Assembly: GCF_008124785.1 (NCBI RefSeq)
Contig: NZ_VNHU01000002.1
Span: 124,001 to 188,000, forward strand
Length of the DNA: 64,000 nucleotides
Direction of reading: 5' to 3'
Source of the DNA: Aquimarina intermedia
GTDB lineage: Bacteria > Bacteroidota > Bacteroidia > Flavobacteriales > Flavobacteriaceae
Each line of letters starts with the position of its first letter. Positions within the stretch are counted from its first letter, which is position 1. Positions 2,569 through 58,609 of this stretch are shown here, one piece after another. The notes under the pieces are model-generated. The model did no database searches. It was not told the origin of the DNA and saw nothing but the letters and a program-made list of their open reading frames with translations. A program made the translations under genes and the position numbers.

Positions 2569-4983
2569 TTATCCTCTTTCTGCCAATCGTAAGATGTCAC
2601 CAAATACACCTCTGGCAGTGACAGAGGCTCCTGCTCCGGCACCCTGAATTACAATAGGTTGATCCCCATAAGATTCTGTGAATATCTCAAAGATAGAATC
2701 TGAGCCTTTTACTTGCCCCAAAGCACTCTGTATAGGGACTGATACTAGCTTAACTTCTAAGATTCCTTTTTCTCGAGATAAATCTCCATGCAATTCTCCT
2801 AAATACCGCAATACATGCTCCCTCTTTTGAACATTTTTGATTTGCGCAAATTCTGCATCGAGTATCTGTAAGTTAGAGAGGAAATCTTTAACCTCACCGC
2901 CTCGCAACGATTCTGGAATCAAATTTTCAATCAAAACTTCATCAAGTTCATTATGCAAATCCAACTCTCTGGCTAATATTAAAAGTTTACGCCCTACATC
3001 ATTACCAGACAAATCTTCTCTCGGATCGGGTTCTGTAAAACCCTTATCAATTGCCTCTTGTAATACTATACTAAAGGATTTGTCCTGACTTGAATATGTA
3101 TTAAACAGATAGCTAAGGGATCCGGAAAAAACACCTTTAATTCTCGTGATATTCTCACCTGAAAGATGTAATAATTTGATGGTATCTATTAAAGGAAGTC
3201 CGGCGCCTACATTCGTTTCATACTGATATTGTTTTTGATTTTCTTCTAAGATTTGCCTTAACTTTCTATAAGAATCAAAGCTCAAGGTGTTAGCTATTTT
3301 ATTAGAAGATACTAAATCAAACCCATTGCAGACGAGTTGTGCATAATGATTCGTAAAAATTTTGCTTGCTGTATTATCAATCGCAATCAAATTCGCTAAA
3401 TGATGCTTCTTAGCATACTCAATGACATCTGTTACGCTATAGCTCCTCCCATCGTTCTCTATTCGTGTTTTCCAGTTTTCGTCAATTCCATGCTTATCAA
3501 GCACTATTTTCTTTGAATTTGCAATGGCTATAATATTTAGACTAATCCCTTTTCGCTTTTGGATTTTCTTTGTAGAGCCCAATATTTGATTAATTAACGC
3601 TCCTCCCACCAATCCATGCCCGAATATAGCAAGGTTAATTTTTTTAGCAACCCCAAAAACCTCACTATGCATTACATTTAATGCTTTATACAACTCATTA
3701 CTTTTAACAACTAAGCTTACCGTCGAGCCCGCTAGGGTATTACTAAAAAGTAAAGGTGTAATTTGATTTTTGATTAATGCGGTATAGGGTTTATGAAAGG
3801 TACTAAGTTGTTGTCCAATAATCGAAATAACTGAAACATCTTTTTCAACGGTGATTTTATGCACATCACGTTTATAAAAATCATTCTCAAACTCTTTTTC
3901 CAAAACTGTTGCTGCCTGATGGGCTTTATTTGTTTTTACAGCAAACCCAATACTACGCTCTGAAGAGCCCTGAGACACCAAACTCACACTAATATTTTCG
4001 GCTGCCAAGACTTTAAAAATTCTTGCATCAACTCCAACTTTATGCAGTAATCCTCGACCTTCGAGATTTATCAATGTCATATCTTCAATTACTGAAAGTG
4101 TCTTGATACCGGTATTATTTTGAGAAGCGGTTATTAAGGTCCCCTTATTTGAGCGGTCAAAAGTGTTTAATATTCGCAAAGGAATATTCTTATTAAGCAG
4201 CGGTATGATCGTCTTTGCATGAAGAATGTCTGTTCCAAAAGATGCCAGCTCATTAGCCTCTGCAAAGGATAACTGATCGATCTGTTTCGCGTCAGCAACA
4301 AGCTCGGGGTTTGCAGTATAAATTCCGCTAACATGTGTATAATTTTGAAGCTCTTCTGCATCCAGATAATTTGCCAACAAGGAAGCGGTGTAATTACTTC
4401 CATTCCTACCTAAAGTAGTCGTGTCATTATTTACACTAGAAGCAATAAAACCAGTTACAACATTAACCGTTGTCCCATTATACTGCTTAAAATGTTGGAG
4501 GACATTGCTTTTCGAAATTGCATCCAATGGTTGCGCTTCACCAAACCTTGCATCTGTTTTTATTAAGAGTCGGCTATCCGTATAATTTGCATTAATTGCT
4601 CTCTCCTTAAGTAAAAAGGTCACCGTCTTTGCGGAAATCACCTCTCCCAGTGACAATACCTGATCTTTTATACGCTCACTATAATCTCCTAAGAGTTGAA
4701 CTCCATCAAAAATTTTTTGCAGTAACTGAAAATCTTCTTCCAGCAACTCTTCATCTAATATGATATTTTGATAAATTTTAAAACATTCCCAGTCATTTTT
4801 ATAATCATATCCTTTTGCTGCCTTATCAAGAATCTTTTCTAACTCATTAGTTGCATTTCCCCTAGCGGACAAAACCACCGCAATTCGCTTCTTATTAAGA
4901 GCATGTTCGGCAATAATCGAAAGTACTGTATTGATACCCTCACCATTTGCTAAGGATTTTCCTCCAAATTTTAAAATTTTCAT
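2569..4983 (-). CDS. thrA: bifunctional aspartokinase / homoserine dehydrogenase
   Basis: 804 residues in the fused ThrA layout. The aspartokinase domain begins with MKILKFGGKSLANGEG, and GRNGSNYTASLLANYL is further in. ACT regulatory repeats occupy roughly residues 300-450 (VGVDARIFKVLAAENISV and the SLVSQGSSERSI stretch). The homoserine dehydrogenase begins at NLAIFGHGLVGGALINQI (NAD(P)-binding) and contains YETNVGAGLPLIDT and GKLLILARE-like segments. It makes homoserine from aspartate through aspartyl phosphate and the semialdehyde, feeding MetX. The gene starts 3 bp after the metX stop, so translation is probably coupled. Placement behind a SAM riboswitch implies control by methionine supply rather than by threonine alone. 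Confidence 0.95.
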   Translation of the reverse strand: MKILKFGGKSLANGEGINTVLSIIAEHALNKKRIAVVLSARGNATNELEKILDKAAKGYDYKNDWECFKIYQNIILDEELLEEDFQLLQKIFDGVQLLGDYSERIKDQVLSLGEVISAKTVTFLLKERAINANYTDSRLLIKTDARFGEAQPLDAISKSNVLQHFKQYNGTTVNVVTGFIASSVNNDTTTLGRNGSNYTASLLANYLDAEELQNYTHVSGIYTANPELVADAKQIDQLSFAEANELASFGTDILHAKTIIPLLNKNIPLRILNTFDRSNKGTLITASQNNTGIKTLSVIEDMTLINLEGRGLLHKVGVDARIFKVLAAENISVSLVSQGSSERSIGFAVKTNKAHQAATVLEKEFENDFYKRDVHKITVEKDVSVISIIGQQLSTFHKPYTALIKNQITPLLFSNTLAGSTVSLVVKSNELYKALNVMHSEVFGVAKKINLAIFGHGLVGGALINQILGSTKKIQKRKGISLNIIAIANSKKIVLDKHGIDENWKTRIENDGRSYSVTDVIEYAKKHHLANLIAIDNTASKIFTNHYAQLVCNGFDLVSSNKIANTLSFDSYRKLRQILEENQKQYQYETNVGAGLPLIDTIKLLHLSGENITRIKGVFSGSLSYLFNTYSSQDKSFSIVLQEAIDKGFTEPDPREDLSGNDVGRKLLILARELDLHNELDEVLIENLIPESLRGGEVKDFLSNLQILDAEFAQIKNVQKREHVLRYLGELHGDLSREKGILEVKLVSVPIQSALGQVKGSDSIFEIFTESYGDQPIVIQGAGAGASVTARGVFGDILRLAERG

Positions 4984-6012: not shown

Positions 6013-7291
6013 TCACTTTTAATTTTCCAAAAGCGACCTTAAGATCTTGTTTAAGATCCTCTATATCCTCTAAACCTATCGATAGACGAATCAAATCTTT
6101 GGTTACTCCTGTAGTTTTTTGTTGTTCTTCATCCAACTGTTGATGCGTAGTGCTTGCCGGGTGAATGATTAGCGATTTGGAATCTCCAATATTTGCAAGT
6201 AATGAGAAAACCTGTGTTTCATTAGCAATGATCTTGGCCGCTTCAAACCCGCCTTTACTACCAAAAGTGATAATGCCGCTTTGACCCTTTGGCAAATACG
6301 TTTGAGATAGCTTGTAAAACTTGTTAGTTGGCAACCCAGGATAATTAACCCAAGCCACTTCATCTTGCTCTTGTAACCATTGTGCCAGTTCTAGTGCATT
6401 TTGACTATGCTTCTGTATACGAATAGATAAGGTTTCAAGTCCTTGAAGAATTTGAAATGCATTAAACGGACTCAGTGCAGCGCCATGATCCCGCAATCCT
6501 TCTATACGTGCTTTTGCGATAAATGCAGCGTTACTCAAGACTTCGTGATACACCAATCCGTGATATCCTTTTGACGGCTCTGTAAACTCAGGAAATCTAC
6601 CGCTCGCCCAATCAAATGTTCCTGCATCGATAATTGCCCCACCAAGAGAAGTCCCATTGCCACTTATATACTTTGTTAGCGAATGAATTACAATATTTGC
6701 TCCGTGTTCAATGGGATTCAGTAGTGCCGGAGTTGCTACAGTATTATCCACAATAAATGGAATCCTAGCCTGACTGGTCACCTCTCCGATCGGTTTGAGA
6801 TCTAAAACGTCCAGTTTTGGATTCCCCAAGGATTCCACAAATACCACACGTGTATTCTCCTGAATAGCTGCTTCAAAATTTTCTGCTTCTGAAGGATCTA
6901 CAAATGTCGTTATGATTCCGAATCTTGGCAAGGTGACATTTAACAAGTTATAAGTGCCTCCATATAAACTATTTGAAGCAACAATATGGTCTCCGGATTT
7001 TAACAAGGTTAATAATGTTGTACTGATTGCAGCTGTCCCCGATGAAGTAACTACGGCGCCAATGCCTCCCTCGAGTGCAGCTAATCGTTTTTCCAAGATA
7101 TCATTGGTAGGATTATTTAATCTGGTGTAAATAAATCCCGGTTCACTAAGATTGAATAAGTTGGCCGCATGGTCGGAATCCTTAAAAACGTATGAGGTAG
7201 TTTGATAAATAGGAACTGCTCTGGTGCCTCCATTGGATACTACATCATGTCCTGCGTGTAGCGCTTGGGTTGAAAAATTTTGTGTACTCAT
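6005..7291 (-). CDS. metY: O-acetylhomoserine sulfhydrylase
   Basis: 428 residues, longer than the metZ-like paralogue, as is typical of MetY. The start is MSTQNFSTQALHAGHD. The PLP site motifs are YTRLNNPTNDILEKRLAALEG near the N-terminus, SSGTAAISTTLLTL, FVESLGNPKLDVLD, and the Schiff-base Lys in HSLTKYISGNGTSLGG. It makes homocysteine from acetylhomoserine and sulfide in the cytoplasm. It is the first gene of the operon, about 200 bp downstream of a SAM-I riboswitch. The downstream genes metX and thrA make its substrate, so the order is consistent with one pathway from aspartate to homocysteine. Confidence 0.92.
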   Translation of the reverse strand: MSTQNFSTQALHAGHDVVSNGGTRAVPIYQTTSYVFKDSDHAANLFNLSEPGFIYTRLNNPTNDILEKRLAALEGGIGAVVTSSGTAAISTTLLTLLKSGDHIVASNSLYGGTYNLLNVTLPRFGIITTFVDPSEAENFEAAIQENTRVVFVESLGNPKLDVLDLKPIGEVTSQARIPFIVDNTVATPALLNPIEHGANIVIHSLTKYISGNGTSLGGAIIDAGTFDWASGRFPEFTEPSKGYHGLVYHEVLSNAAFIAKARIEGLRDHGAALSPFNAFQILQGLETLSIRIQKHSQNALELAQWLQEQDEVAWVNYPGLPTNKFYKLSQTYLPKGQSGIITFGSKGGFEAAKIIANETQVFSLLANIGDSKSLIIHPASTTHQQLDEEQQKTTGVTKDLIRLSIGLEDIEDLKQDLKVAFGKLKVSV

Positions 7292-50755: not shown

Positions 50756-50780
50756 GGTGGCATTAGAGAGCCAACGAAGC
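50756..50780. repeat. left copy of a 25-bp direct repeat flanking the CRISPR-Cas locus
   Basis: GGTGGCATTAGAGAGCCAAC and the following GAAGC recur at 58514-58538 with one mismatch (24/25). Read on the minus strand both copies encode LRWLSNAT; here the frame reads IFEHLKLLRWLSNATYVRFK and ends at a stop, with no start. The two copies bracket the whole locus (7.8 kb). Confidence 0.75.
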
Positions 50781-50806: not shown

Positions 50807-50885
50807 AAAAAAGTGATCCGGTAAGAACCGGACCACTTTGAATGTTTTCACAACGGAATAATCCTTATTGTGAATTGCTTTCAGT
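50807..50885 (-). ncRNA. tracrRNA for type II-C Cas9
   Basis: Minus strand. The antirepeat at 50867-50884 reads CTGAAAGCAATTCACAAT, matching the array's plus-strand repeat (17/18), so it can pair with a crRNA copied from the minus strand. The 3' end is a hairpin at 50811-50838 (AAGTGGTCCGGT / ACCGGATCACTT with 4-nt loop) followed by a T-run, a Rho-independent end. Between them is the linker with GTTGTGAAAAC. Length near 79 nt. A promoter lies just upstream. Identification is by complementarity and layout. Confidence 0.88.
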
Positions 50886-50889
50886 ATTT

Positions 50890-50919
50890 CAAAGATAATA
50901 TAATCTCTGATAATAACAA
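50890..50919 (-). promoter_or_regulatory. tracrRNA promoter
   Basis: On the minus strand TTG (50919-50917), a 19-bp spacer and TATCTTTG (50897-50890) match the Bacteroidota TTG-N17..23-TAnnTTTG consensus exactly. The predicted start falls a few bases later, just before the antirepeat. Confidence 0.75.
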
Positions 50920-50979: not shown

Positions 50980-53900
50980 ATGAGAAGAATTCTAGGATTA
51001 GACCTGGGGACAACATCCATTGGCTGGGCATTTGTTCAGGAAGCAGAAAACAATCAAGAAGAATCTAAGATTATCCAGACAGGGGTTAGGGTTGTACCTC
51101 TTAATACAGATGAACAAACTAGCTTTGAAAAAGGACAGAGTATTACCATAAATGCAGATCGAACCCTTAAAAGAGGTGCAAGACGAAACTTGCATCGTTA
51201 TAAAATGCGCCGCGAGGCGGTTATCAACCTCTTTAAAAAAATAAATTTTATAAATGATAGCTCAACTTTCTCTGAAGAAGGAAAGCAAACTCATAGTACC
51301 TACGCCTTGAGAGCTAAAGCTACCGGTGAGAAGCTAGAAAAGGAAGATCTGACAAGAGTTTTTTTAATGCTCAATAAAAAAAGAGGCTATAAAAGTAGCA
51401 GAAAGGCCAATAATCAAGAAGAAGGTCAACTTATTGATGGCATGGCTATTGCAAAACGCTTGCACAAGGAGCATTTAACTCCTGGAGAGCTTTCCTATAA
51501 GTTACTTCTAGAGGGAAAGAAAAACATACCTGATTATTATCGTTCTGATTTACAAACAGAATTTGATAAAATTTGGCAATTACAAAAAACATTTCATCCT
51601 GAGATATTCACGGATGACCATTACGAAGCGATTGAAACACTTAACAAAACTAAAACTGGTCAATATTTTGAAAAATCCATAGGTACTCCTCGAGCAGAAT
51701 GTAAGGGTAAACGGAATGAAAAAAAGTTACAGTTCTACCGGTGGCGAAATGATGCTGTACATAAAGAACTTGAGCTATCAAAAATTGCTTTTGTCCTGAC
51801 CGAGATTAAAGGTGAAATTAACAGCTCTAGCGGGTATTTGGGAGCTATCAGTGATCGAAGCAAAGAACTCTATTTCAACGATGAAACTGTCGGTCAAAAC
51901 CTTTACAAGCAACTTCAAAAAGACCCCAATGCCTCTCTAAAAAACCAAGTCTTTTATCGTCAAGATTATATGGATGAATTTGATGCAATTTGGCAAGAGC
52001 AATCAAAACATTACAAAGAACTTACAGAACAGGTTCGTAAAGAATTACGGGATATTACTATTTTTTATCAGCGTAGACTTAAATCTCAAAAAGGTCTTAT
52101 AAATATATGTGAATTAGAAAGTAGAGAACTCGAAATTCTTGAAAACGGAATCAAAAAAAGGAAGTTAATTGGTCCAAAGGTAGCTCCAAAATCTTCACCT
52201 GTTTTTCAACAAGCAAAAGTATGGCAAAGTATAAACAATATAGTCCTAACAAACGAAATTACTAAAGAGATAAAATATCTAGATGACGAACTAAGACAAC
52301 TCCTCTTTGAAGAACTTAATTGGTTATTTTATTTTAGTAAAGCACAATTACTTAATTTTCTGAAAAAACATTCAGACATAAAGGGCAAGAATTGGAAAGT
52401 GAATCTTGAAAAAATTGAGGGTAATAAAACCAATGCCACGCTGCTTGCAATTTACAATCAAATCTTACAAATTGAGGGATATGAAGCCTTAGACTCCAAA
52501 ATATCCATTTCACAAAATATGGAGCAATTAAAATACTGTTTTGAAACAATTGGCATTAATAGCAAAATCCTCTCAATTGACTATAGTTTAAAAGGAGACG
52601 AGTTCGTACAACAACCTTCCTATAAGCTTTGGCACTTATTGTATTCTTATGAGGATGATTCATCCTCTACAGGTATTGAAAGTCTAATAAAAAGATTGCA
52701 AGAACATTTCAATTTTAAAGAAGAACATGCAAACCTCTTATGCGGCGTGGCCTTTACACAAGATTATGGTAGCTTGAGTGTTCGTGCACTTCGTAAATTA
52801 ATGCCTTATCTAGAAGAAGGAAAGATTTATAATGAAGCTTCTGAACTTGCTGGATATAAGCATTCTAATTATATGACAGCAGAGGAAAACAAAGATCGTC
52901 AGTTACTTGATAAATTGGAAGTTCTGAAGAAGAATTCTTTACGTAATCCCGTAGTAGAGAAAATCTTGAACCAAATGATCAATGTGATAAATGCAATCAT
53001 AGAAAATCCTGAATTAGGAAAACCTGATGAAATACGGATTGAGATGGCAAGAGAGCTAAAAAAAACAGCCAAACAACGAAAAGAAATGACCGCTGCTATA
53101 GTAAAAGCTACAGATCAACATAAAAAATATCGAGAAAGAATTCAAAAAGAGTTTGGACTTTCTTATGTAAGTAGAAAGGATTTAATAAAGTATAAATTAT
53201 ATCTCGAACTCAAAGCAACCGGTTTTAAAACTCTTTATTCTGGAACATATGTTAAGCCGGAAGAACTCTTCACAAATAAGTTTGATGTAGAGCATATCAT
53301 TCCACAATCCATATTATTTGATGACTCTTTTTCTAATAAAACTATAGAGCTGCGAAGTGTAAATCTTGAAAAAGGAAAAGAGACAGCATTTGATTTTTGC
53401 GAGAGAAAAGGATGTTTAAACGATTTCAAAAATCGATTGGAAGAATGTTATAGCGACGGAAAAGGAGAATTAAGATATGGGAAAAGAAGTAAACTCTTAA
53501 TGTCTTTCAAGAACATACCAGAAAACTTTCTTAACCGTGACTTAGGAAATACAGCTTATATAGCTCGTAAAGCAATTCAAATACTACAACCCTTAGTGAG
53601 ACAAAAAATAGTGTCAACTTCTGGTAATATTACAAGTAAGTTAAGAAGCGATTGGGAGTTAATTAATGTACTTCAAGAACTAAATTGGAAAAAATATGAG
53701 GTTCTAGGCTATACATATTATGATTATAATAAAGATGGTAAAGCATTACCAAGAATAAAAGATTGGAGTAAACGGAATGATCATAGGCATCATGCAATGG
53801 ATGCTATCGCTGTGGCATTTACACGTCCTGCTTTTATACAATACCTGAATACCATGCATGCCAAAAGCGGTAAATCGGGAGAAGTAATTGGGATAGAGAA

Positions 53901-55116
53901 AAAATATACATATCGAGACGCAATAGGCGGACGCAAGTTCAAAAAACCTTACGACACTATCAGAGAGGATGCAAAAGAACACATGGATAAAATTTTAATA
54001 TCTCATAAAGCTAAAAACAAGGTAGTAACCTCCAATAAAAACAAGATAAAAATTAGTGGTAAAAATAATTATAAGACTAAAATAGAACTGACTCCCAGAG
54101 GCCAATTACATAAAGAAACTATTTATGGGCAGTCCCTTGTTTACCTTGTCAAAGAAGAAAAGATTAGTGCGTCCTTTGATGAGGAAAAAATAATGACAGT
54201 TACCAAAGCTAAATACAGAGATGCTCTTTTAAAGCGCTTAAACGACAATGAAAATGATCCTAAAAAAGCTTTTACAGGTAAAAATTCAATAACTAGAAAC
54301 CCCGTTTTTATATCAATAAATCAAAATGTCCCCGATAAAGTTAAAACGCAATCTTTGGTACCGAGATTCACTATCAGAAAAAACATAACACCGGATATAA
54401 AATTGGATAAAGTTGTTGATTTAGGTGTTAAGCGTATCTTGGAAACAAGACTGAAACAATATAATGGCAAACCAAAAGTGGCATTTGCTGATCTAGATAA
54501 TAATCCTATTTGGTTAAACAAAGAAAAGGGAATTACTATTAAAAATGTAACCATTACTGGTGTTAGCAATGCAGAACCACTTCATACTGCCAAAGATCAT
54601 AATGGAAAACAAATTATAGATCCCTCTGGCAAACCTATACCCATAGATTATGTAAGCACTGGAAATAATCATCATGTAGCTGTTTATAGAGATAGAAATG
54701 GAAATTTACAAGAGGAAGTGGTCTCGTTCTATGAAGCGGTCATCAGAAAGAATTTAGAGCAATCGATAATTAAAAAGAATCATGAAAAAGGATGGAAATT
54801 TCTCTTCACACTAAAGCAAAATGAGATATTTGTTTTCCCTTCACTAGATTTTGAGCCTTCAGAGGTTGATTTGTTTGATACAAATAATAAGAAAATTATA
54901 AGCGAAAATCTATTTAGAGTTCAAAAAATATCCTCTAAAAACTATGTTTTCAATCATCACTTAGAAACTAAAGCCGCAGGATCTGATACCTTTAAAAATA
55001 AAAAAGAACTTTCAGAATTAACCTATAAATTCTATCAAAGTGAAAAGTATTTAGAAGGAATAATAAAAGTTCGACTAAATCACCTTGGAGATATAGTGCA
55101 TATTGGAGAATATTAA
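50980..55116 (+). CDS. cas9: type II-C CRISPR endonuclease Cas9
   Basis: 1378 residues. RuvC-I is MRRILGLDLGTTSIGWAFV (Asp8). An Arg-rich bridge helix follows near residues 60-85 (RTLKRGARRNLHRYKMRREA). RuvC-II is EIRIEMAREL (Glu688); the HNH site is NKFDVEHIIPQS (Asp769, His772) with Asn795; RuvC-III is HRHHAMDAIAVAF (His938, Asp941). All catalytic residues are therefore present. The C-terminal part should hold the PAM-interacting domain. No csn2 or cas4 is nearby, which gives subtype II-C. The nearest promoter-like signal is not clear. It heads a cas9-cas1-cas2 order. Confidence 0.96.
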   Translation: MRRILGLDLGTTSIGWAFVQEAENNQEESKIIQTGVRVVPLNTDEQTSFEKGQSITINADRTLKRGARRNLHRYKMRREAVINLFKKINFINDSSTFSEEGKQTHSTYALRAKATGEKLEKEDLTRVFLMLNKKRGYKSSRKANNQEEGQLIDGMAIAKRLHKEHLTPGELSYKLLLEGKKNIPDYYRSDLQTEFDKIWQLQKTFHPEIFTDDHYEAIETLNKTKTGQYFEKSIGTPRAECKGKRNEKKLQFYRWRNDAVHKELELSKIAFVLTEIKGEINSSSGYLGAISDRSKELYFNDETVGQNLYKQLQKDPNASLKNQVFYRQDYMDEFDAIWQEQSKHYKELTEQVRKELRDITIFYQRRLKSQKGLINICELESRELEILENGIKKRKLIGPKVAPKSSPVFQQAKVWQSINNIVLTNEITKEIKYLDDELRQLLFEELNWLFYFSKAQLLNFLKKHSDIKGKNWKVNLEKIEGNKTNATLLAIYNQILQIEGYEALDSKISISQNMEQLKYCFETIGINSKILSIDYSLKGDEFVQQPSYKLWHLLYSYEDDSSSTGIESLIKRLQEHFNFKEEHANLLCGVAFTQDYGSLSVRALRKLMPYLEEGKIYNEASELAGYKHSNYMTAEENKDRQLLDKLEVLKKNSLRNPVVEKILNQMINVINAIIENPELGKPDEIRIEMARELKKTAKQRKEMTAAIVKATDQHKKYRERIQKEFGLSYVSRKDLIKYKLYLELKATGFKTLYSGTYVKPEELFTNKFDVEHIIPQSILFDDSFSNKTIELRSVNLEKGKETAFDFCERKGCLNDFKNRLEECYSDGKGELRYGKRSKLLMSFKNIPENFLNRDLGNTAYIARKAIQILQPLVRQKIVSTSGNITSKLRSDWELINVLQELNWKKYEVLGYTYYDYNKDGKALPRIKDWSKRNDHRHHAMDAIAVAFTRPAFIQYLNTMHAKSGKSGEVIGIEKKYTYRDAIGGRKFKKPYDTIREDAKEHMDKILISHKAKNKVVTSNKNKIKISGKNNYKTKIELTPRGQLHKETIYGQSLVYLVKEEKISASFDEEKIMTVTKAKYRDALLKRLNDNENDPKKAFTGKNSITRNPVFISINQNVPDKVKTQSLVPRFTIRKNITPDIKLDKVVDLGVKRILETRLKQYNGKPKVAFADLDNNPIWLNKEKGITIKNVTITGVSNAEPLHTAKDHNGKQIIDPSGKPIPIDYVSTGNNHHVAVYRDRNGNLQEEVVSFYEAVIRKNLEQSIIKKNHEKGWKFLFTLKQNEIFVFPSLDFEPSEVDLFDTNNKKIISENLFRVQKISSKNYVFNHHLETKAAGSDTFKNKKELSELTYKFYQSEKYLEGIIKVRLNHLGDIVHIGEY

Positions 55117-55132
55117 GAATCATACCTATAAA

Positions 55133-56369
<1,237 letters not shown>

Positions 56370-56439: not shown

Positions 56440-58052
56440 CCTGTGAATTCTCCTCTAAAATAAAGAACTGAAAGCAATTCACAACTTTGATCAAGTTCAA
56501 ATACATCTGTACGGGCCTGTGAATTCTCCTCTAAAATAAAGAACTGAAAGCAATTCACAACCTAGCGTGCTTTACTGCTTCTTCTTTTGTGCCTGTGAAT
56601 TCTCCTCTAAAATAAAGAACTGAAAGCAATTCACAACTGTAAAGAATTATAAGAAGCGTTTCTGTTCCTGTGAATTCTCCTCTAAAATAAAGAACTGAAA
56701 GCAATTCACAACTTCATCAGTTGTAACTACTAATTCCCTTTTCCTGTGAATTCTCCTCTAAAATAAAGAACTGAAAGCAATTCACAACGGAATATGTCGG
56801 TTAATATTGATCAAAGAACCTGTGAATTCTCCTCTAAAATAAAGAACTGAAAGCAATTCACAACAAGCCAAGCTGTATATCCTAATCCCTTTAGCCTGTG
56901 AATTCTCCTCTAAAATAAAGAACTGAAAGCAATTCACAACCCCCCCCTTGCATATAAACCCCAATATAATCCTGTGAATTCTCCTCTAAAATAAAGAACT
57001 GAAAGCAATTCACAACTCCATTACTATTTTAATGATGAGTGTAATACCTGTGAATTCTCCTCTAAAATAAAGAACTGAAAGCAATTCACAACTAAGCAAG
57101 ATCAAAGCATTAAGAGACAATACCTGTGAATTCTCCTCTAAAATAAAGAACTGAAAGCAATTCACAACTAATAAATCCTGCTTCTGTCGGAATATTAGCC
57201 TGTGAATTCTCCTCTAAAATAAAGAACTGAAAGCAATTCACAACTAGGGTAGGTAAAAAAGATGACGATAAATACCTGTGAATTCTCCTCTAAAATAAAG
57301 AACTGAAAGCAATTCACAACTCAGAGATTATACAAAAATCAACCTCACGTCCTGTGAATTCTCCTCTAAAATAAAGAACTGAAAGCAATTCACAACACTT
57401 TCCGCAGCTTCCTCTTCGATGTCTTTCCTGTGAATTCTCCTCTAAAATAAAGAACTGAAATCGACCTTTTGGGAGATTCAGCGACTCCTAAAACAATAAT
57501 AACAGGAGCTAAAGCAATTCACAACATTCCTTCTGCGCCCATTGCCAATGCTATCCCTGTGAATTCTCCTCTAAAATAAAGAACTGAAAGCAATTCACAA
57601 CCAGAAATCATTTTCATGTATTTCTTCATCTCCTGTGAATTCTCCTCTAAAATAAAGAACTGAAAGCAATTCACAACTAATTGGTCACCAAAAATAATTA
57701 ATTCGATCCTGTGAATTCTCCTCTAAAATAAAGAACTGAAATCGACCTTTTGGGAGATTCAGCGACTCCTAAAACAATAATAACAGGAGCTAAAGCAATT
57801 CACAAAATTTACTCAATAGAATTACCTAACTAACAAGAACGTAGATCATCCTCTCATTGCGTTTCATGCCACTCGTAGGTGATCACAAATTCTCCTCTAA
57901 AATAAAGAACTGAAAGCAATTCACAACTCAAATTATGCGTATCACCTCCCGTGTCTGCCTGTGAATTCTCCTCTAAAATAAAGAACTGACATCGACCTTT
58001 TGGGAGATTCAGCGACTCCTAAAACAATAACAACAGGAGCTAAAGCAATTCA
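56440..58052 (-). CRISPR. type II-C CRISPR array, 17 spacers
   Basis: Repeats of 46 bp (CCTGTGAATTCTCCTCTAAA on the plus strand to GCAATTCACAAC) alternate with 17 spacers, 16 of 30 bp and one of 29. Repeats 1-13 are identical, starting at 56440, 56516, 56592 and so on to 57351. Repeat 14 (57427) and 17 (57708) contain a 53-bp insert. Repeats 15 and 16 are normal. Repeat 18 (from 57886) is missing its first bases, and repeat 19 (57958) again carries the insert and degenerates. Pairing with the tracrRNA shows that the crRNA is transcribed from the minus strand, that is, towards cas2. The regular, identical repeats lie next to cas2 and the decayed ones far from it. Confidence 0.95.
57461..57513. 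repeat. 53-bp insert inside CRISPR repeat 14
   Basis: Splits the repeat after ...GAACTGAAA, which resumes with GCAATTCACAAC. It begins TCGACCTTTTGGGAG, contains CTCCT/AGGAG arms and ends AGCTAAA, so the final AAA duplicates the AAA before the insert. Identical or nearly so to inserts at 57742, 57992 and 58166. Confidence 0.85.
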
Positions 58053-58331
58053 CGAAATTTACTCCATAGAATAATCAAACTAACAAGAACGTAGATCATC
58101 CTCTCCTTGCGTTCCACTGCACTCGTCGGTGATCACGAATTCTCCTCTAAAATAAAGAACTGACATCGACCTCTTTTGGGAGATTCAGCGACTCCTAAAA
58201 CAATAACAACAGGAGCTAAAGCAATTCAGAATAAAGTTACTCCATAGAATAACCTAACTAACAAGAACGTAGATCATCCTCTCCTTGCGTTTCACTCCAC
58301 TCGTCGGTGATCACGAATTCTCCTCTAAAAT
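57708..58331. repeat. composite degenerate repeats at the far end of the array
   Basis: Up to three units of about 180 bp follow one after another: broken CRISPR repeat, the 53-55-bp insert (57742-57794, 57992-58044, 58166-58220), the repeat end, then an 80-85-bp tail (57807-57886, about 58053-58136, about 58230-58314) that ends GGTGATCAC before the next GAATTCTCC. Tails share ACAAGAACGTAGATCATCCT. One ordinary 30-bp spacer (57928-57957) lies between units one and two. The last repeat fragment stops near 58331. Confidence 0.82.
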
Positions 58332-58411
58332 AAAGAATTAATATGCAAACACTAAAATTTCAGTCACTTCAAAATTAATACCGTATCAAATACTTTATCA
58401 CCATTGGCTAT

Positions 58412-58609
58412 TTAGAAAAATAGATCTAGAGAATTGCTAAGTAAAGATAGCTTGACAAGTTGAACACTACGATCATTCACAAATACACTCTTAAACTTGC
58501 TTCGAATGGCACTGGTGGCATTAGAAAGCCAACGAAGCTGTTTTTTATTAGAAAAATTATAAGTCAATCGATACTTATAAAACAAAAAACCCTCCTGATC
58601 AATGATCAA
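58412..58609 (-). other. short open frame carrying the right flank peptide
   Basis: 65 codons, MIIDQEGFLFYKYRLTYNFS then KKQLRWLSNATSAIRSKF and a Ser/Leu-rich end. The part KKQLRWLSNAT matches the frame at the left flank repeat (KLLRWLSNAT). It may be a remnant of a longer gene, perhaps of a mobile element, or of an ORF duplicated on both sides. I recognise no family. Confidence 0.4.
58514..58538. repeat. right copy of the 25-bp direct repeat flanking the CRISPR-Cas locus
   Basis: GGTGGCATTAGAAAGCCAAC and GAAGC, 24/25 identical to 50756-50780. It lies 82 bp from the 3' end of tRNA-Leu and about 200 bp beyond the last repeat fragment. Confidence 0.75.

Follow-up and report, generated by a model that had tools for sequence, protein, structure and literature searches.

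Interrupted CRISPR repeats and a probable small mobile palindromic element in Flavobacteriaceae

Why should several repeats of a single CRISPR array be broken at the same point by the same short sequence? The question is raised by a 64,000-nucleotide stretch of the Aquimarina intermedia genome (hereafter the window), in which an initial annotation had noticed interrupted repeats and offered two readings: either a tiny mobile element had inserted and duplicated its target, or the common 46-bp repeat was an internal deletion of a longer ancestral unit. Here we compare the inserts with one another and with related sequences in the same genome, in its congeners and in more distant bacteria.

The host locus and its four interrupted repeats

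The window contains a CRISPR-Cas locus of the type II-C class, with cas9, cas1, cas2, an array and a tracrRNA region:

50811-50897, minus strand: tracrRNA region upstream of cas9 (from reading of the sequence)
50980-55116, plus strand: cas9 (TIGR01865)
55103-56032, plus strand: cas1 (TIGR03639), with an in-frame TAA at 55523-55525
55977-56369, plus strand: cas2 (TIGR01573)
56440-58337, minus strand: type II-C CRISPR array with the 46-bp repeat GTTGTGAATTGCTTTCAGTTCTTTATTTTAGAGGAGAATTCACAGG, crRNA sense on the minus strand

The tracrRNA region comprises a promoter box (TATCTTTG, 50890-50897), an 18-nt anti-repeat (50868-50885), a nexus and a terminator hairpin (50811-50839), and its canonical position and strand identify the minus strand as the crRNA strand (GTTGTGAATTGC...). 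The order cas9-cas1-cas2, the 46-bp repeats, the spacers of about 30 bp and the tracrRNA upstream of cas9 are all as in other type II-C loci of Flavobacteriia, from which this locus differs by four insert-bearing repeats, a premature stop in cas1 and extra tail units at the end of the array. In Riemerella (R. anatipestifer), new spacers enter between cas2 and the array (PMC6008519), and by analogy the AT-rich stretch at this place would be the leader. Transcription of II-C arrays starts from repeat-borne promoters and runs toward the leader (PMC8092290). The two halves of cas1 around the TAA both match TIGR03639 in the same frame, and the congener genes are intact; given this stop, spacer acquisition is probably off in the window locus.

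Two minor features accompany the locus. A 22-bp direct repeat (GGCATTAGANAGCCAACGAAGC) lies on each side of it (50759-50780 and 58517-58538), occurs only these two times in the genome and could mark a past insertion of the CRISPR-Cas cassette. The spacer at 57321-57350 matches 50899-50910, in the tracrRNA/cas9 promoter region, exactly over its 12 repeat-proximal nucleotides, and self-regulation or chance are both possible explanations.

The inserts and the sequences that follow them are located as follows:

57458-57510, minus strand: element copy 1, 53 bp, in repeat 14 (57427-57525), normal spacers on both sides
57739-57791, minus strand: element copy 2, 53 bp, identical to copy 1, in repeat 17, followed by a tail unit
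57806-57886, no strand assigned: tail 1, after repeat 17, with the hairpin GATCATCCTCTC...GGTGATCAC (also GTGATCACCGACGAG...GGATGATC)
57989-58041, minus strand: element copy 3, 53 bp, in repeat 19, left AAA changed to ACA
about 58055-58136: tail homologous to tail 1
58163-58217, minus strand: element copy 4, 55 bp, in repeat 20, left AAA changed to ACA
about 58229-58314: tail homologous to tail 1

These coordinates bear out the initial annotation, which had described 53-55-bp copies of one sequence splitting four repeats at one point: on the plus strand, GAACTG precedes and AAAGCAATTCA follows every insert. Pairwise identity is 98-100%, and the BLAST E values of about 1e-20 to 1e-24 within the window mean that this likeness is not due to chance. 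The junction duplication of AAA that had been reported is likewise there, on both flanks of copies 1 and 2, with ACA on the left of copies 3 and 4. The interrupted repeats are numbers 14, 17, 19 and 20 counted from the cas2 side. Read from the leader-distal end, with I for a repeat that carries the element and N for one that does not, the array runs I I N I N N I, followed by 13 N; the left end of repeat 20 is fused to a tail.

A homologous tail, about 80-90 bp long, lies behind each of the three outer copies, and the resulting units measure 174-250 bp. Two changes are common to copies 3 and 4, both of which lie in such tandem units, and this points to segmental duplication. We rejected the idea that the tail is itself a dispersed element, because it is present at two CRISPR loci only: among 69 congeners it was found again solely at the CRISPR locus of genome G027, in six units 163 bp apart (L032, about 3359-4190). 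The tail hairpins stand in tandem units at the leader-distal end of the array.

A dispersed family with precise empty sites

The element measures about 45-57 nt, folds into two hairpins and has no open reading frame. Both hairpins are kept in the seven copies that we aligned, where both partners of six base pairs have changed; two-sided changes affected nine cells, compared with 3.2 in shuffles, and sliding controls were far lower. This covariation was seen again across the wider family, and the CTCCT/AGGAG arms first noticed in the window inserts are real and covary between species. Conserved hairpins of this kind are what small palindromic mobile elements have. Rfam gave no match for the element, and the CRISPR-type element pattern was not matched in viral contigs.

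A search of the whole window genome found the element at the four array positions only, with no dispersed copy. Elsewhere it is common: at thresholds of E 0.01 and 0.001, where the weakest matches may be due to chance, it was found somewhere in 29 of 69 congeners and in 29 of 398 genomes of the order (14 genera). The left flank of dispersed copies is TTT in nearly all cases and the right flank C in most, a statistic biased by the covariance models, which contain the TTT flank. Since the models include flanks, it is the empty sites, which are unaffected, that carry the argument for the insertion site. Many copies in Aquimarina lie in an intergenic module, GCAGCCTTGATTTTTTTGTTT[AGCTCAC...GTCGATTT]CTTTTTTTATCAAGAC. 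One site of this module is filled in five congeners and precisely empty in G073; a second is empty in G058 and filled in G013 and G052. In G214, tandem copies of the element are joined exactly at TTT.

The element also enters genes. Within one genus (code g129, probably Flavobacterium), an in-frame insert of 48 nt lies near the start of pth in G666, G774, G196 and G817. The empty form reads ATG AAA AAA in G579 and ATG AAG AAA in G601 and G386, and the filled form ATG[48 nt]AAAAAA (G666, G774). As a result, peptidyl-tRNA hydrolase gains an in-frame segment of 16 residues, MKPEVHEHPKNNINSVS-like (L168, L169, L171, L172, L179). Other gene starts also hold copies, which code for MKSKIHE...MSKK-like leaders. 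Dispersal to unrelated loci, together with precise empty counterparts, is the mark of a small mobile element. Thus, a search of relatives for the insert outside CRISPR arrays, which had been proposed as a check, found it in many Flavobacteriaceae after TTT, usually as TTT^C, and the empty sites, that in pth within a single genus included, support the reading as a tiny mobile element.

The element in CRISPR arrays of other species

Among the 69 congeners, a DNA search detected the insert in the G018 and G054 arrays, to which inspection of the sequence itself added G060. Type II cas1 scored over the cut-off in 11 of the 69 genomes, and four of these 11 carry the array insert. With a covariance model, we found the element in three more genera of Flavobacteriaceae, in each case at the same point of the repeat: in Pustulibacterium (two copies, in tandem units), in Croceitalea (three, within duplicated leader units) and in genome G089, where 6 of 38 repeats carry it and each measures about 103 bp. 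When 84,980 genomes were scanned by pattern, ten records emerged, among them new ones from an uncultured Cellulophaga, Moheibacter sediminis and three MAGs. About a dozen species carry the element within type II-C repeats, and it invariably occupies GCTTT^CA.

In arrays that could be read, the inserted repeats lie at the leader-distal, and hence oldest, end (p ~0.005, counting one event per array). The exceptions are Croceitalea and the MAG copy L193, with copies in duplicated leader units. There, a leader and a degenerate element-bearing repeat have been duplicated between the array and cas2 (L068, about 3135-3701; L193, about 649-711), and these units also hold an inserted GC-rich palindrome.

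In a tree of 49 element cores, weakly resolved over its 57 columns, most CRISPR copies fall together, with 3 label changes where shuffling gave 13; those of Cellulophaga and G089 stand apart. This grouping makes it likely that the element entered CRISPR at least twice and that one lineage became CRISPR-resident.

Two copies stand near tracrRNA-like sequences away from any array that we detected. In Aquimarina muelleri (L030, 558-700, at the start of the contig), an element-bearing repeat runs straight into a tracrRNA nexus and tail (TAAGGATTATTCCGTTATGAAAACATTT). It lies outside the CRISPR locus, on a contig end where reading by eye suggests a replication-like and an integrase-like gene; the fused copy looks like a natural single guide or a decoy. 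In Moheibacter sediminis (L187, about 6966-7092), an orphan element precedes a tracrRNA-like tail (GGTGAAAACATTTAGTGCC) by about 100 bp, and no array or cas genes were detected in the surrounding stretch.

Origin and spread of the inserts

To explain these results, we propose that the inserts are, with high probability, a small non-autonomous mobile palindromic element, whose copies in the array were multiplied by recombination or segmental duplication and of which a CRISPR sub-lineage has persisted. In the opposite polarity, the ancestral repeat would have measured about 99 bp and included the insert, and internal deletion would have produced the 46-bp form; this reading could draw on the runs of long repeats in G089 (6 of 38). 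It is contradicted by the majority of short repeats in every long array and by the element's presence at non-CRISPR TTT sites with empty counterparts; moreover, the three duplicated base pairs identify the longer repeat as the derived state. We therefore regard this second reading of the initial annotation as highly improbable. That the arrangement is an assembly artefact, to which repeated sequence in a draft of 29 contigs might be prone, has a negligible probability, since the copies carry point differences and the arrangement recurs in independently assembled genomes of other species. The inserts are not tracrRNA or its duplicates either, which is ruled out by the canonical tracrRNA upstream of cas9: anti-repeat, nexus and terminator lie at 50811-50885 and not in the inserts.

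A functional role deserves more weight. The insert could be a conserved CRISPR RNA module, a cloverleaf acting as array-end regulator, alternative guide scaffold or array promoter and selected at the leader-distal end. Its conserved and covarying structure, its leader-distal place in several species, the extended CTGAA..TTCAG stem of the CRISPR-specific sub-lineage and the orphan Aquimarina muelleri copy with its direct tracrRNA fusion would all suit such a role, which we nevertheless consider unlikely: the same element is dispersed outside CRISPR, also within pth, most II-C loci lack it (of 11 congeners with type II cas1, 4 carry it), its copy number and position vary freely, and guides beside interrupted repeats do not consistently match cas promoters. 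A natural single-guide (tracr-L) function, suggested by the Aquimarina muelleri fusion, was set aside, as the guides of interrupted repeats gave no supporting match to cas promoters. Very improbable, too, is that the element is a reverse-transcribed RNA that returns to DNA, be it the msr-like part of a retron or some other. Its UUUAG followed by a hairpin may resemble the branching-G motif of retron msr RNA, but no reverse transcriptase was recognised, by eye from N- and C-termini, among the ORFs near nine dispersed copies, and the failure to match Rfam argues in the same direction. An interruption in a CRISPR repeat should accordingly not be taken, by itself, as a sign of ancestry or function.

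How would the mobile element have come to occupy the array? We envision that it inserts 3' of TTT, usually at TTT^C and in fixed orientation, leaving an apparent 3-bp TTT/AAA repeat. Each CRISPR repeat offers such a target (GAATTGCTTT^CAG), with GCTTT^CAG on the loop side of its palindrome, so that the array clearly illustrates how a CRISPR repeat can itself serve as the repeated target of a mobile element. An old leader-distal insertion in the window was probably multiplied together with its tail unit, by recombination or segmental duplication, to give repeats 17, 19 and 20, and the copy in repeat 14 was probably gained through exchange between repeats. That copying along the array had spread the insert was proposed at the outset, and this part stands in so far as recombination or segmental duplication fits better; copying during acquisition is unsupported, because new repeats arise at the leader, the inserts are leader-distal and cas1 has its in-frame stop. 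The runs of inserted repeats in G089 carry different spacers, which suggests that acquisition there once copied the insert, with later loss.

The insertion may also have consequences for the repeat. It would part a putative -33 TTG at the repeat start from a -7-like TATTTTAG box, and would thereby silence the promoter of that repeat; some 14-15 bp of tracrRNA pairing should be kept. Across species, most CRISPR copies fall into one sub-lineage, apparently persistent in II-C arrays. Since CRISPR copies mostly cluster, frequent fresh insertion into CRISPR is not established, and long residence with exchange between repeats must be invoked. More tentatively, and with somewhat more doubt than confidence, we suggest that this sub-lineage is specialised: it would persist at the old ends of II-C arrays across genera, ride along when the locus is inherited or transferred, have a hairpin matched to the flanking repeat and alter the crRNAs at interrupted repeats. 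How Cas9 arrays tolerate interrupted repeats, and what mobilises elements of about 50 nt, thus become testable questions.

As to mobilisation, our search for a mobiliser found none; an enzyme could act in trans, possibly a single-strand HUH/Y1 transposase. The fixed TTT target and the tandem TTT junctions in G214 are consistent, at the level of sequence, with single-strand insertion 3' of a short target. This mechanism is only a guess, because Y1 transposases occur in many carriers and not in all (Y1_Tnp is absent from the carrier genomes G246, G089 and G073) and none of the Y1 genes examined is flanked by the element. A Y1/RAYT parent element was likewise rejected, as no element lay beside these genes.

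Elements of the IS200/IS605 group have stem-loops, a short flanking target in fixed orientation and precise empty sites, and lack terminal inverted repeats. Like REP sequences and the miniature elements of that group, the family has small stem-loops in fixed orientation to a short target, precise empty sites and no terminal inverted repeats, but no RAYT or TnpA gene was found adjacent to the element. The tags of REP/RAYT systems are GTAG and CGTC (PMC3733652), and the window copies have neither tetranucleotide at the foot of a hairpin. With DDE MITEs the family shares its non-autonomy, short length and small direct repeat at the junction; it differs in having no terminal inverted repeats (its ends are AGCTC.. 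and ..CGATTT) and in a junction repeat of 3 bp that is nearly always TTT. Rickettsia palindromic elements (RPE) are short palindromic sequences of about 150 bp, dispersed between genes and in frame within unrelated protein genes (PMC10969869). The family resembles them as a dispersed short palindrome with no gene of its own and with in-frame copies in a protein gene (pth), while its window copies lie in CRISPR repeats. It differs from them by its 45-57 nt against about 150 bp, its two short hairpins, its TTT^C target, its flavobacterial hosts and its CRISPR-resident branch. Thus, the family works like known small palindromic mobile elements and fails the tests for REP, IS200/IS605 and DDE MITE membership (sequence tag, partner gene and terminal repeat). 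It appears to be undescribed, the open-access literature searched holding no account of the family or of inserts in CRISPR repeats, and its empty sites are good enough for studying movement. The element can itself be a target: in G017 and G020 (L143, L144), a nested palindrome of about 30 bp extends the second hairpin, a further insertion inside the element.
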